The notes beneath the pieces were generated by a model. It made no database searches and was not told the origin of the DNA. It saw nothing but the letters and a program-made list of their open reading frames with translations. A stretch of 35,413 nucleotides of DNA from Ignavibacteria bacterium. GTDB taxonomy: Bacteria > Bacteroidota > Ignavibacteria > Ignavibacteriales > Ignavibacteriaceae. Below are positions 3,073-8,806 of this stretch, piece after piece. The DNA lies in contig JAJTBZ010000107.1 in NCBI GenBank assembly GCA_021286645.1, positions 1 to 35,413 of the forward strand, given 5' to 3'. Position 1 is the stretch's first letter. Every line of letters starts with the position of its first letter. A program made the translations under genes and the position numbers.

Positions 3073-5946
3073 TTAATTTATTTTTACGACTACAAGAGTT
3101 ATATCGTCCGATTGTTCAGTTTTTTTCGCAAATAACTGAACATCGGCGATAATTGATTTGCAAATTATATCGGCATTCATTGCAGCATATTCGGATATTA
3201 TTTGTTCAAGTTTATCCTCACCGTAGAAATTTCCAGTTGAATTTTTTGCTTCTGTAATTCCATCTGAATAGAGTATAAATACATCATCGGTATGGTATGA
3301 TATCCGGGAAATTTCGAGTGTATTAGCAAAAACCTGTAACGGTCCTATACCTAAGCCAATTCCTCTCGGAACAATTCTTTCAATACTATTTTCAGAAGCT
3401 TTATAGTGAAGCAAGGGTAAATGTCCTGCTCGCGCATATGACACAATTTTTGAGTCAAGTGAAAACGTTGCAACACCTGCAGTAATAAAGGATTTTGAAT
3501 CCATCTGTCGGAAAAGAGAACTATTTACTTTATCCACTAAATCATAAGGATCATTATAGAACGCGTGAAGTGTTTTGAAAATCCCCTGAACTTTGGACAT
3601 GTAAAGCGCTGCAGAGGTCCCTTTTCCACTTACATCACCTAATATAACAGTTAAATCGGTCACACTGCCATTTAAAAAATCATAAAAATCCCCGCCAACT
3701 TCTAAAGCGGGTAATGAAGCGGCTGCAACTTGTAATTGTGGATACTCAGGCAATTTTTGTGGCAGGGATGAAAGTTGGATTTTACGCGCAATCGCAAGTT
3801 CCTGCTTATAGCGCTGCTGATCTGCCAGGTCTTCATATAAGCATGCATTCTCTATAGCTACTGCAAAGTTTTTTACTAATGAGTGTAGAATATCAATATC
3901 CTGCGTAGTAAGGTATGTTTCAGAGCGCTTCTCACCAATAAACAATGCTGCAACCAACGCGTCATGTTGTTTAATCGGAATGATTTTTTGCACGCCATTA
4001 CCACGGAAGTATTCTTTAAATTCATCAGGTAAGTAATCTATTGATATTGCATTTGAAAATGGTTCAATAGCTTCATACAAACTTAATCCGGGTTGTAACT
4101 CTACATGAGTTTGAGTTACATGGTTAAAGACGAATATTTCATTTCCCAGCCCGAGTTTATTCTTCCGAAATATGGTAATCCCCGTTGATTTTAGATGGAG
4201 AACTTCAGCAGTTCCTTCAGCGATCAATCGTAATAAAGGCAGCAATTCCCGCGTGTTTTCAAGCAAAGAAACAAGTTCGTCAAGAACATATCGGTAATCC
4301 AGTCTTTGCCGGTAAAATTTTCGATCTATAACATTTTTTATGTTATAAAATACTCGGAAGACCAAATAAGAGAATAGTAATCCTGTAACTAAACAAAACA
4401 ACTTCAGGTAAAAAGAATTCAATTCCGGTGCTAATTGATGGTTGAGAATTTCCAGACTGGTACCTGTATAACGAATATTCGGGAAATTAATATTAACAGA
4501 TGCGATACGAACAAGTCCCAAGACGAAAAAAGCTATCATTCCAATGTAGAATGAGGAAAGTACTATATTGTACAATGTGTTTGTGCGAATTCGAAGATCA
4601 ATATCGAGTAACCGGTATTTCCAAGTAATGAACAAATACGAAAAAGGGATGATCGTCAGTGAGAAACTGAGCACAATTCCAATCGTATTCGAGTAATTTA
4701 GATTTAATAGTTGCGCCAGTATCTGTACCAGAAGCATTGCAGAAACGATGGAAAATGAAACTTTTATCGGCAATGCAAGTTTTTTATATTCTTTTGAGAA
4801 TTCAGAACGATTCCTATATCGTAGGATAAAAAAACTAAACAGGTTGCCCAATAATAACACAACAATCGCATTTCCTACCCAGGAGCTTGTTGTTAGATTC
4901 AAAATTTGCGCGTACATCAAAAGAGCTGTAACCGCTGAAATAGAATAGGGGATTCGGAAATACCATTTATTGCGGGTTATTCTGGTAATTTCAATAGGAA
5001 AATATGCGAAACTGTGGAAGAATACCGGGAATACGAATGCCAAGGCCAGATTTTGAATTAAACTCCGAATAATTGTATATAAATTATAACCTACCGGGTA
5101 AAATTCTATGCTGTTGCAAAGTAAGTAACCCATCATGATAAAGGCCGTGCCTGTAATTCTGGCAACAAATAAATGCGGTCGCTTGAGCGTAAAAAATAAC
5201 CCCACCAAATAAAAGATAAATGCAATGCTAATAAGCCCCAATACGAGAAATGAAAAACCAAAACTCGCGAGTTCTACCCGTAAATGGTAGATAATATTGT
5301 TTCTTAGTACCTGATACGTTAATATCGAACCGGCAGGCCTGTCTCGAAGAAAACGAATGGATTCCATGCTTAATGGCTGGTTCTCAAGTGAATCCATAGT
5401 AATAAGCTGAGTCCCGTTTACTGTAATAATAACGTCTCCCGGTAAAAGACCGCCCCTTGCTACGGCGCCATTCCTGTCAATATGTGATATTAGTGTTCCG
5501 TGAGCTACATAACGCAACGTGTTCTTCGATAGAAGCTCCGTGGGAATGTTTAATGAATGGGGCTTGGAATCGAGTTTAATGTTATTTTCATCTCCAATAC
5601 TATTACGTATCGAATACAGATCATAATATTCAATTTTGCATGTTTTGCCCTGCAAATTTCGCAAAAGTGAATCAAATTGAGATTCCGAGTGTAATATTAT
5701 GCCATTTACTGATAAAAGAATGTCTCCGGTCTTCGGGAAGAGATTTGAAGCCGGATTTGCCAAATTTGCCGTGGTGATATCTTTTTTGAAGAAAAATTTA
5801 CCGGGGATTCCGCGATATTGTGCGCCGGTAACAACAGTTTTTGAAAATTGATATACTAATATGCTATTTAAACCGAGAAAAACAACTGTTACAGCTATAA
5901 TTATTAAACGAAATAGAAATTTATGCGTAACGCGGGCAGCATCCAT
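3073..5946 (-). CDS. membrane sensor phosphatase: PDZ domains, multi-TM region, GAF, SpoIIE-type PP2C
   Basis: A 957-residue signalling protein. In order: a transmembrane helix at about 10-32; a PDZ-like domain (about 55-120, 'GDILLSVNG'); a second PDZ-like domain (about 150-235, 'GLLPGDVIITVNG'); roughly seven or eight transmembrane helices (about 240-520); a GAF domain (about 570-705); a linker with 'RKIQLSSLPQKLP'; and a C-terminal SpoIIE/RsbU-type PP2C phosphatase domain. The metal-binding aspartates of that domain are all visible in GGDFYDF, LGDVSGKGTSAAL, DGITEAKN and QSDDITLVV. Phosphatases of this kind normally dephosphorylate an anti-sigma-factor antagonist (STAS) in partner switching. 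No STAS or anti-sigma kinase gene lies nearby, so the target is unknown. I start it at ATG 5946. A longer frame from TTG 5997 exists, but a likely promoter occupies 5967-5998. Confidence 0.88.
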   Translation of the reverse strand: MDAARVTHKFLFRLIIIAVTVVFLGLNSILVYQFSKTVVTGAQYRGIPGKFFFKKDITTANLANPASNLFPKTGDILLSVNGIILHSESQFDSLLRNLQGKTCKIEYYDLYSIRNSIGDENNIKLDSKPHSLNIPTELLSKNTLRYVAHGTLISHIDRNGAVARGGLLPGDVIITVNGTQLITMDSLENQPLSMESIRFLRDRPAGSILTYQVLRNNIIYHLRVELASFGFSFLVLGLISIAFIFYLVGLFFTLKRPHLFVARITGTAFIMMGYLLCNSIEFYPVGYNLYTIIRSLIQNLALAFVFPVFFHSFAYFPIEITRITRNKWYFRIPYSISAVTALLMYAQILNLTTSSWVGNAIVVLLLGNLFSFFILRYRNRSEFSKEYKKLALPIKVSFSIVSAMLLVQILAQLLNLNYSNTIGIVLSFSLTIIPFSYLFITWKYRLLDIDLRIRTNTLYNIVLSSFYIGMIAFFVLGLVRIASVNINFPNIRYTGTSLEILNHQLAPELNSFYLKLFCLVTGLLFSYLVFRVFYNIKNVIDRKFYRQRLDYRYVLDELVSLLENTRELLPLLRLIAEGTAEVLHLKSTGITIFRKNKLGLGNEIFVFNHVTQTHVELQPGLSLYEAIEPFSNAISIDYLPDEFKEYFRGNGVQKIIPIKQHDALVAALFIGEKRSETYLTTQDIDILHSLVKNFAVAIENACLYEDLADQQRYKQELAIARKIQLSSLPQKLPEYPQLQVAAASLPALEVGGDFYDFLNGSVTDLTVILGDVSGKGTSAALYMSKVQGIFKTLHAFYNDPYDLVDKVNSSLFRQMDSKSFITAGVATFSLDSKIVSYARAGHLPLLHYKASENSIERIVPRGIGLGIGPLQVFANTLEISRISYHTDDVFILYSDGITEAKNSTGNFYGEDKLEQIISEYAAMNADIICKSIIADVQLFAKKTEQSDDITLVVVKIN

Positions 5947-5966
5947 AACTTTATAAATTTTTGAAT

Positions 5967-5998
5967 GAAAGATAAAGTATAAGAAAAATGGCCGCAAT
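5967..5998 (-). promoter_or_regulatory. candidate Bacteroidota-type promoter of the PP2C phosphatase gene
   Basis: Reading the minus strand, ATTG (5998-5995) is followed by 20 bases and then TATCTTTC (5974-5967), one mismatch from the TAnnTTTG -7 box of Bacteroidota promoters. The predicted transcript start would lie near 5960, just upstream of ATG 5946. This argues that the in-frame TTG at 5997 is not the start codon. The region is AT-rich, so a chance match is possible. Confidence 0.4.
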
Positions 5999-6148
5999 TA
6001 TAAAGAAAAACTTTATAAGCTTACCAGGAATGATACTGAGAAAATGCATCAATATGAGACATTAAAATTCGCTCAAATATGCGAAAATAGCGGATATTCG
6101 CATTGGCACAGTTGTTGTGTAAAGGAAGTATAATTTAAGGAATGTTTT

Positions 6149-6511
6149 ATGGATCTCTTTCCATTACTTAGTATGTCGCTTTTATTGTTCTCTGCAACAA
6201 TAGTTTTATTTCTCTTTATATCATTTTTTGTATATAAAATTAAACATATTCCGGCCGGGCGCCAGCACGGAGTCAGGAAAGAGAATCAGCAAATGGTTCC
6301 AATCCCGATCAGGTACGAGACAAGAGAAAACATTGTGCATTCTGTCGCATTACCTGAAAATGGTACATTCCAGTATTATGATCCTAATCTCTATAAGCAG
6401 CCGGAAGTAAAACCGGTTATTACCAAGAGTATTAAATATGAAGTCTATAATACACAGCGCTACAATAATTACATGTCGAATTTTGAAAGCAGACCATATT
6501 ATATAAAATAA
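6149..6511 (+). CDS. small membrane protein with tyrosine-rich tail, unknown function
   Basis: 120 residues, not recognised as a known family. A single strong hydrophobic helix covers about residues 4-29, followed by a positive KIKH segment, so the N-terminus is probably outside and the tail cytoplasmic (positive-inside rule). The tail is hydrophilic and unusually rich in tyrosine, with about eleven in the last 70 residues (RYE, QYYD, LYK, KYE, VYN, RYNNY, PYYIK). ATG 6149 is preceded by TAAGGA, an acceptable ribosome-binding site. Codon usage and base composition resemble the neighbours, and the start plus ribosome site make it a credible gene. It is divergent from the phosphatase gene and lies 68 bases upstream of the lipid kinase, separated from it by a strong hairpin. 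Possible roles include a small envelope-associated adaptor; nothing in the sequence decides this. Confidence 0.55.
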   Translation: MDLFPLLSMSLLLFSATIVLFLFISFFVYKIKHIPAGRQHGVRKENQQMVPIPIRYETRENIVHSVALPENGTFQYYDPNLYKQPEVKPVITKSIKYEVYNTQRYNNYMSNFESRPYYIK

Positions 6512-6532
6512 AACTACCACTATTTTTACATG

Positions 6533-6581
6533 CTCCTGATGATTAGTATATTAGCATAATAATCATCAGGAGTTTTTTTTT
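6533..6581 (+). terminator. terminator-like hairpin that contains the ribosome-binding site of the lipid kinase
   Basis: A perfect 13-bp stem pairs 6533-6545 with 6560-6572. It can extend by three more pairs (6547-6549 with 6556-6558) across one mismatch, leaving a 6-base loop. Nine T residues follow (6573-6581). This is a textbook intrinsic terminator for the small membrane-protein gene. However, the 3' arm ends in AGGAG (6568-6572), which sits exactly 7 bases before the TTG start codon (6580) of the lipid kinase. The 5' arm carries the matching CTCCT. The element could therefore act as an attenuator or translational switch; see the finding. Confidence 0.85.
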
Positions 6582-7482
6582 GAAGTCACTTCTTATTGTA
6601 AATCCGGCTTCCGGGAAGGGGAGAACCGCGAAGATTCAACAGTACCTGATTAAGACATTTACGGAAATCCATAATGACTCTGAAGTATTTATATCAGAAT
6701 ATCCTAGACATGCTGAGTCGTACATCTATGAAAATGGAAAAAGATTTAAACTCGTTTTCATCGCCGGCGGCGATGGTACCACCAGTGAAGTTATAAATGG
6801 TATGAAACCGGAGCACGATTTTACGATTGGTGTACTTGGAGTAGGTTCGGGAAATGATTTTCCCAGAACGTTAGGAACACTAGGCAAATCGCCTAAGGAG
6901 GTTCTGTATATGGGGAAAGCGGATAAAAAAGACCGAATTGACTTGGGGAAAATTATTATCAGAAATGCAGACGGTTCGGAACTGGAACGCGTATTTCACT
7001 CGACATGCGGCGTCGGATTTGATGCTGCAGTTTCAAAGATAAGTAACAGAAAGAGTATTCTTCGGGGTTTACCGCTGTATTTATCGTCTGTATTTGTTGC
7101 ATTACTTCAATATAAACCTCTCGAAGTTTCAATTGAGACTGAACATGATAGATTCCGAGGAAGGAAATTGCTAATAACTATTGGAAATACAAAGAGTTCC
7201 GGTGGCGGATTTCAACTAACTCCTAGAGCAAATATCGCAGATGGAAAGTTAGACTTAATGATTGGTGAGCATGTAAGTCGGTTAAAGATTTTATATTTAC
7301 TTCCACGGGCAATATTTGGTAAACATTTAAAGAGTAAGTATGTTGAATATAGGCAGATACAAAAATGTAGCATTGATTTTACGGATCGGGTGATTATTCA
7401 TGCAGACGGGGAGATACTAACAGAAAACGCCCGGCAGATTCAGGTAGAAATCTTACCAGGCGCAATTTCAGTAATAAAGTAA
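6580..7482 (+). CDS. diacylglycerol kinase / YegS-type lipid kinase
   Basis: A cytoplasmic or membrane-associated lipid kinase that phosphorylates diacylglycerol or a related lipid with ATP. The 300 residues are the full family length. Visible motifs are the N-terminal 'LLIVNPASGKGR' strand-loop (4-15), the GGDGTT nucleotide-binding loop at 63-68, 'GVGSGNDFPRTLG' at about 87-99, 'GVGFDAAVS' near 146-154, and the 'ADGE' metal/phosphate region near the C-terminus. The start must be the TTG at 6580. The first conserved strand begins at residue 4, no upstream ATG, GTG or TTG is in frame before a stop (6544-6546), and AGGAG stands 7 bases upstream. That ribosome site lies in the 3' arm of a terminator hairpin, so expression is probably limited or conditional. 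It meets the next gene tail to tail with 43 bases between, where I see only AT-rich sequence. Confidence 0.9.
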   Translation: MKSLLIVNPASGKGRTAKIQQYLIKTFTEIHNDSEVFISEYPRHAESYIYENGKRFKLVFIAGGDGTTSEVINGMKPEHDFTIGVLGVGSGNDFPRTLGTLGKSPKEVLYMGKADKKDRIDLGKIIIRNADGSELERVFHSTCGVGFDAAVSKISNRKSILRGLPLYLSSVFVALLQYKPLEVSIETEHDRFRGRKLLITIGNTKSSGGGFQLTPRANIADGKLDLMIGEHVSRLKILYLLPRAIFGKHLKSKYVEYRQIQKCSIDFTDRVIIHADGEILTENARQIQVEILPGAISVIK

Positions 7483-7525
7483 TATTTATAGGTTTACATA
7501 ATATATATTATGCGACAAGAGCGTA

Positions 7526-8806
7526 CTATCGAACAGAAACAATAAACTGGAATTCCTTTGTCAGCGTTTCGGTAATATTATCTCTTCGATACTTCTCGAC
7601 TACTTCTTCATTGGGTTTCGGTAAACGATTATTTGCATAATCGGTATATACCTTAATCAACAATTCTTTTATTTGATTTTCATCTGCCGGATCTGCAATG
7701 TACGATGCTCCGTATTCCTGTAGTGCATTCTGTATTGCACCTTTATAAACCAAACCAATAATTGGTTTTCTTGTGCCGATATATTCAAAAATTTTACCTG
7801 CAGATATTGTATCGTAATTTCTGGCTTTGTTGATCGTCATGAGCAATATATCGCTGGAATTGAGCTTTCTAACCGCTTCTAAATGCGTTATATAACCCGT
7901 CTGAGTTACATATGCTTCGAGCTTTAATTTCTTTACTTGCTTATTGATTGATTTCCGCCAGATCCCTATAAATTGGAACTGAATATTTGCCGCAATGTGC
8001 GGGTGCGTACGTAATAATGAATAAAAAGCGTTTAGAATATATTTCGGTGTGACTGAAGCATAAAATAAACCGGAAAATGTAATTATCATCTTATCAGCAG
8101 GTCTGTGCTCCGTACCAGCTTTCTGTATATCATCGGGGTCATAACCATGCGGAATTATTATAACATCACGGTGTTCGATGAATGGATAATATTCCATTAT
8201 TTTTTCTTTGATCTGGCGATTGGTTACAAACAGTTTGTCAATCGTTTTAATGGTACGATATTCCATGCTTTTAACCATGGATTTATGAAATGGTGTCGGA
8301 TAAATCACGAACTGTGCTCCGTACCATAAATCCCGGTAATCTGCCGTGACAGGAATTCCAAATTCTTTCTTTAGTTCCGCGGCCATCATAACACTTGAAA
8401 ACGGAGGGCCGGAAACAAATACCAAATCAAAATGCTCCTCACGTAAAAGTTTTCGCGCTTCATCAATAGCTACTTTCGACCAACCTTTTTTATTGTCAGG
8501 CAGATAAAAGAACATACTAAAAAATGAAAATACTTTACGTAAAAATTCTGAAGGAAAACTTATATTGCCTTTTTTAGGTATTTTAGAATTTATTTCATTG
8601 CCTGCTACCCTAACTACACGTACCTGTTCGGGATCAATATCGTTCATTAAACTATGATCATACGCGAAGTAGGCATTATCATCGGATGTAAGTACCGTTG
8701 GCTGCCATTCAAATTTGGGCATATACTTTACGAACTTAAGCGTTCTTTGCACTCCACTTAAGCCTTTTGGCGGAAAGTAGTAAGCTATCACCAAAACCTT
8801 AAACAT
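7526..8806 (-). CDS. glycosyltransferase, GT-B fold (GT4-like)
   Basis: 426 residues. The N-terminus 'KVLVIAYYFPPKGLSGVQR' is the first beta strand and acceptor loop typical of GT4-type enzymes. The C-terminal Rossmann half has 'MIITFSGLFYASVTPKYIL' (about 245-265) and 'SAGKIFEYIGTRKPIIGL' (about 340-358), where a Glu lies near the nucleotide-sugar donor site. Such enzymes transfer a sugar from an activated donor to cell-surface glycans or lipids; donor and acceptor are not readable here. A related enzyme lies at 30700-31953 with the same YYFPP opening. ATG 8806 is 2 bases after the stop of the aminopeptidase gene, making it the last gene of a four-gene minus-strand run (kinase, acyl-CoA dehydrogenase, peptidase, this gene). 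Confidence 0.82.
   Translation of the reverse strand: MFKVLVIAYYFPPKGLSGVQRTLKFVKYMPKFEWQPTVLTSDDNAYFAYDHSLMNDIDPEQVRVVRVAGNEINSKIPKKGNISFPSEFLRKVFSFFSMFFYLPDNKKGWSKVAIDEARKLLREEHFDLVFVSGPPFSSVMMAAELKKEFGIPVTADYRDLWYGAQFVIYPTPFHKSMVKSMEYRTIKTIDKLFVTNRQIKEKIMEYYPFIEHRDVIIIPHGYDPDDIQKAGTEHRPADKMIITFSGLFYASVTPKYILNAFYSLLRTHPHIAANIQFQFIGIWRKSINKQVKKLKLEAYVTQTGYITHLEAVRKLNSSDILLMTINKARNYDTISAGKIFEYIGTRKPIIGLVYKGAIQNALQEYGASYIADPADENQIKELLIKVYTDYANNRLPKPNEEVVEKYRRDNITETLTKEFQFIVSVR

Follow-up and report, generated by a model that had tools for sequence, protein, structure and literature searches.

Can a gene be translated freely when its Shine-Dalgarno (SD) sequence and start codon are built into a transcription terminator? 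The question is raised by an ORF at 6580–7482 (+ strand) of the window, i.e. the whole 35,413-nucleotide stretch of Ignavibacteria bacterium DNA analysed here. According to the ORF list, its domain matches (DAGK_cat, 9.5e-23; YegS_C, 1.9e-28) and its relatives, this ORF encodes a lipid kinase of the YegS/diacylglycerol kinase family, 32% identical to one from an Ignavibacteriae MAG. A sequence-only reading had taken the arrangement for a regulatory switch, either an attenuator or a thermosensor. The analyses below support the overlay of functions and point to insulation of neighbouring genes.

Terminator, ribosome site and start codon

The hairpin can be read directly from the sequence. A 5' arm, CTCCTGATGATTA (6533–6545), bearing the anti-SD, pairs perfectly over 13 bp with a 3' arm, TAATCATCAGGAG (6560–6572), around a 14-nt loop (6546–6559) into which the stem partly continues, its upper part being weakly paired. 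The SD sequence AGGAG (6568–6572) closes the 3' arm and lies 7 nt 5' of the TTG start codon (6580–6582). The intervening T9 tract (6573–6581) provides the U-tract of the terminator, the spacer between SD and start, and the first two bases of the start codon. All of these elements, on the + strand, are located where the sequence-only reading had placed them. It had also regarded the start as fixed by homology. TTG 6580 is the sole ATG, GTG or TTG between an in-frame TAG (6544–6546) and the conserved first strand of the kinase (KSLLIVNP, directly after the TTG). TTG also starts the kinase gene in several relatives.

For genome statistics, a sample of 1.42 Mb of contigs from the same genome (≈ 38% of 3.7 Mb, 108 contigs) was used with a simple gene call; it is not fully random, as some contigs were picked from pattern matches. 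GGAG-type motifs precede 32% of starts at a distance of 4–12 nt, against 3.8% for a control stretch. This is a strong enrichment, and the motif is a genuine ribosome site of this organism. The most frequent spacings of AGGAG are 5–8 nt, so that the spacing of 7 nt is ordinary here.

Upstream of the hairpin, a membrane-anchored protein of 120 amino acids is encoded at 6149–6511 (+ strand; ORF list and homologues in relatives), co-directional with the kinase gene and 68 nt away from it. Homologues exist in other genera (best E-value 4.7e-9, 40% identity), and one of them, in genome G018, has an intrinsic terminator of its own (CCGGAGT GTT ACTCCGG T9) ≈ 16 nt past the stop codon. The hairpin under study shows the two hallmarks of such elements. 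The first is a stable stem immediately followed by a T-rich tract: besides the 13 bp and T9, the folding energy of 6533–6582 is −19.3 kcal/mol compared with −5.4 ± 2.0 for shuffled sequences (z = −6.9), and none of 200 shuffles folded as well. The second is a co-directional position shortly past a stop codon, in this case 21 nt, which coincides with the mode of about 19–23 nt for terminators in this genome. In the first 755 kb of the sample, 129 intrinsic-terminator-like hairpins were counted versus 17 in shuffles (≈ 7.6-fold), mostly about 10–30 nt past a stop codon. The T-run is present on the + strand side only. In stem, U-tract and distance from the stop codon the hairpin thus resembles ordinary co-directional intrinsic terminators, differing from them in that the next start codon lies inside or right at the U-tract. 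It has the appearance of an ordinary intrinsic terminator serving the 120-aa gene, whose transcript it most likely ends.

Access to the ribosome site and a candidate promoter in the hairpin

The cost of opening the SD was computed as 18.1 kcal/mol for RNA reading through from upstream and 4.7 kcal/mol for RNA with a 21-nt leader. Only ≈ 0.2% of the sampled genes have starts as closed as that of the read-through RNA, while the lower value is typical, 38% of genes being higher. These computed values support the claim that read-through RNA would hide its ribosome site, and one sequence does combine terminator, anti-SD and ribosome site. The sequence-only reading went on to state that transcripts from upstream have to pass the terminator; as an account of all kinase transcripts this overlooks a good promoter candidate within the hairpin itself.

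The candidate consists of a −35 element TTTACA (6525–6530), located just 5' of the stem and matching TTGACA in five of six positions with the mismatch at G, and, after a 16-bp spacer, a −10 element TATATT in the loop (6547–6552), which was found in promoter scans and ends 27 nt before the start codon. With the −10 element in the loop, RNA would begin near 6559, where the 3' arm starts (predicted start 6558–6560, from the position of the −10). Without the 5' arm, the ribosome site of such RNA would be as open as that of a typical gene.

A plain sigma-70 scan placed TTTACA/TATATT first of 12 candidates in the region. With a score tuned to the genome, whose −10 consensus was taken from this very genome and whose weights were set in the course of the analysis, the site TTTACA-N16-TATATT (6525–6552) reaches 11 out of 12, and it is the only one scoring at least 10 on the + strand of 5991–6620. 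A score of 11 was reached by none of 314 operon-internal starts, by 3.2% of promoter-bearing upstream regions and by 0.6% of shuffles of 6512–6579; per kb, sites scoring at least 11 number 0.028 in coding sequence and 0.22 in intergenic sequence that leads into genes. Measured against the sigma-70-type class TTGnnn-16/17 nt-TAWWTT, the candidate is a match of 11/12 that is rare in controls, with TTT in place of TTG in its −35 element.

The genome's own promoter class was seen as TTG-N19/20-TAnnTT upstream of genes (104 cases versus 38.7 expected from other spacings). The distance of 27 nt from the end of the candidate −10 to the start codon is inside the genome's cluster of 25–55 nt. More generally, TTG-N19/20-TAWWTT appears to be the housekeeping promoter class of the lineage, with the −10 mostly ending 25–55 nt before the start (467 upstream sequences of genome G000, that of the window). 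These figures derive from spacing-anchored counts; a free EM search for promoters was set aside, as it drifted towards motifs rich in CCGG. CCGG-containing hexamers are strongly enriched upstream of genes in G000 (CCGGTA, 46 versus 9.5 expected; also TGCCGG and TACCGG).

Taken at sequence level, kinase expression is best explained by a promoter overlapping the terminator. We consider it probable that compaction has superimposed the intrinsic terminator of the 120-aa gene on the start of an independently transcribed kinase gene, and that the arrangement insulates and does not sense. Transcripts of the 120-aa gene would stop at the U-tract; those reading through would carry the full hairpin, from which the kinase could not be translated. 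The kinase gene would be transcribed from its own promoter, whose −35 immediately precedes the 5' arm and whose −10 lies in the loop, and its mRNA, starting near 6559 at the base of the 3' arm, would never possess the 5' arm and would have a free SD. The net effect would be that very little space suffices to insulate two adjacent genes. Insulation is favoured over a switch mainly because of the difference in SD opening cost between the kinase's own RNA and RNA from upstream.

In about 58 bp the roles of terminator, promoter, insulating anti-SD and ribosome site may accordingly be combined, a compact natural example. If the promoter is real, the locus would show a way in which co-directional genes only 68 nt apart achieve full insulation, and would caution against inferring regulation from an SD placed in a hairpin where the gene's own transcription begins within it. 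The nested promoter would be the less usual part of the arrangement; a narrow search of the open-access literature returned no precedent for a promoter nested in a terminator. Of the sequence-only interpretation, the triple-role sequence and the SD hidden in read-through RNA have stood, whereas the regulatory switch is not supported. Compaction of the genome combined with insulation is the best reading of the overlay, which is real; nothing points to a regulated switch.

Alternative explanations

A promoterless kinase gene could be expressed at low level by read-through from the 120-aa gene, the terminator and anti-SD keeping that level low. We regard such a leaky operon as unlikely. The two genes are co-directional and closely spaced, no intrinsic terminator is known to be perfect, and a second overlay in this genome (contig C70, see below) lacks a matching promoter. 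However, the start on read-through RNA is among the least accessible of the genome (about the top 0.2%), a ribosome that terminates at 6511 would stop short of the stem at 6533, and a strong promoter-like site is present inside the hairpin. In a variant of this explanation, RNase cleavage in the loop perhaps frees the 3' arm.

Quite unlikely, in our estimate, is a dual transcription/translation attenuator, in spite of anatomical parallels. In repC of pT181, the next gene uses an AGGAG in the 3' half of the terminator as its ribosome site, and transcription as well as translation is blocked by the hairpin (PMC5435934). In dual-platform riboswitches the terminator is so near the ORF that the 3' side of its hairpin includes the RBS (PMC2258182). 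The kinase locus shares this feature with both, having its AGGAG in the 3' arm 7 nt from the TTG, and because of these systems a ribosome site inside a terminator is not new. In pT181, however, an antiterminator and an antisense RNA choose between two folds, whereas no alternative fold or effector was found at the kinase locus; the spacing between SD and start is 12 nt in pT181 compared with 7 nt, and the kinase locus has a promoter candidate in its loop. Unlike the dual-platform riboswitches, it has no aptamer recognised by Rfam upstream, and what precedes its hairpin is a protein-coding gene, at the distance normal for a terminator. The attenuator part of the sequence-only proposal is not supported by the folding of the upstream RNA, in which no competing antiterminator exists: freeing the 5' arm from earlier pairing costs at most 3.3 kcal/mol and its MFE partners are all inside the hairpin. 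A search of 5900–7600 against Rfam returned no regulatory RNA, the sole match up to E = 1 being a plant microRNA model (E-value 0.22, other strand). Only 21 nt separate the upstream stop codon from the stem, and the kinase starts of 27 relatives lack the hairpin (see below).

It is very doubtful that the nested promoter is fed chiefly by polymerases that, having just terminated at this site, start again without leaving it. Kinase transcription would then track that of the upstream gene without a shared RNA, with the hairpin blocking translation of read-through RNA. Post-termination recycling of polymerase has been described (PMC6978380) and, by analogy, could be a route feeding the nested promoter.

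We also find it highly improbable that the hairpin is a palindromic protein-binding operator or a mobile palindromic repeat and not a terminator. The palindrome spans nearly 40 bp at a promoter-like position, but its exact arm is unique in the genome, the matches elsewhere carry one mismatch and none of the six inspected forms such a hairpin; a terminator agrees with the T9, which is oriented to the 3' side, and with a spacing from the stop codon that is typical.

An RNA thermometer, in which heat melts the stem and exposes the SD, is scarcely credible: the SD is fully paired in read-through RNA, but a perfect 13-bp stem is much too stable to melt in the physiological range, the predicted mean unpaired probability of the SD being 0.005 at 60 °C and 0.037 at 80 °C (≈ 96% still paired). 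The thermosensor part of the earlier proposal is thus not supported.

Related loci and a second overlay in the genome

In a strand-correct comparison, none of the kinase orthologues of the 27 relatives has a hairpin at its start. The sequence-only reading had held that relatives keeping the kinase start without a hairpin would deprive it of regulatory meaning. Such relatives exist, but the argument is weakened because their kinase gene, unlike the one studied here, follows ftsY. This order is found directly in 27 related loci (L002–L027 and L050), where an SRP54 match and its ORF support the identity of the upstream C-terminus as FtsY. In the genome of the window, ftsY is on another contig (C5). 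The kinase gene has therefore moved to a different neighbourhood, as judged from gene order. In the sole genome of the same genus (G001) the kinase gene is cut by a contig end, and a search for close orthologues with the N-terminal part of the kinase gave none. A DNA search with 6100–6700 against 97 relatives gave short matches of low significance only.

Among ≈ 100 co-directional terminators of the 1.42-Mb sample, two have the next start 7–8 nt past the stem and an SD in the 3' arm. The second one, at C70:131013–131060 (locus L171; terminator at 131013–131051), has SD and ATG in the terminator hairpin plus T8 (TCCTATGGTTCA...TGAATCATAGGA-T8-ATG, i.e. the pattern TCCT...AGGA-T8-ATG) and is located 3' of a SIMPL-domain gene and 5' of a gene for a 163-aa protein without Pfam match. 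This hairpin has no promoter comparable to the kinase candidate; hence the overlay can exist without a nested promoter. Orthologues of the C70 gene in relatives also lack the hairpin. Since this is true for both genes, neither overlay is a conserved element. Where a start abuts a terminator, an SD at normal distance falls into the 3' arm and the 5' arm becomes an anti-SD, so compaction alone can produce the pattern.

The pattern TCCT...AGGA-T5-NTG was then searched in 196 relatives with the reversed pattern as control. Matches were present in 174 of them, in most only modestly above the control. None of the 14 hairpin-forming cases inspected has a gene starting at the NTG as the kinase gene does; the majority resemble ordinary terminators, and in three the hairpin is the terminator of a riboswitch of the fluoride type. 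These three loci, in three species of one genus, show a fluoride-riboswitch-like aptamer followed by a terminator (L231:2000–2150; L232, minus strand; L233:1825–1953). The L233 aptamer matches Rfam RF01734 with 31.1 bits, just under the gathering score of 34, and L231 and L232 are alike by eye. All three are upstream of a 234-aa ORF with the N-terminus MKILIVSDIHANLPALQAVLD, which is metallophosphoesterase-like.
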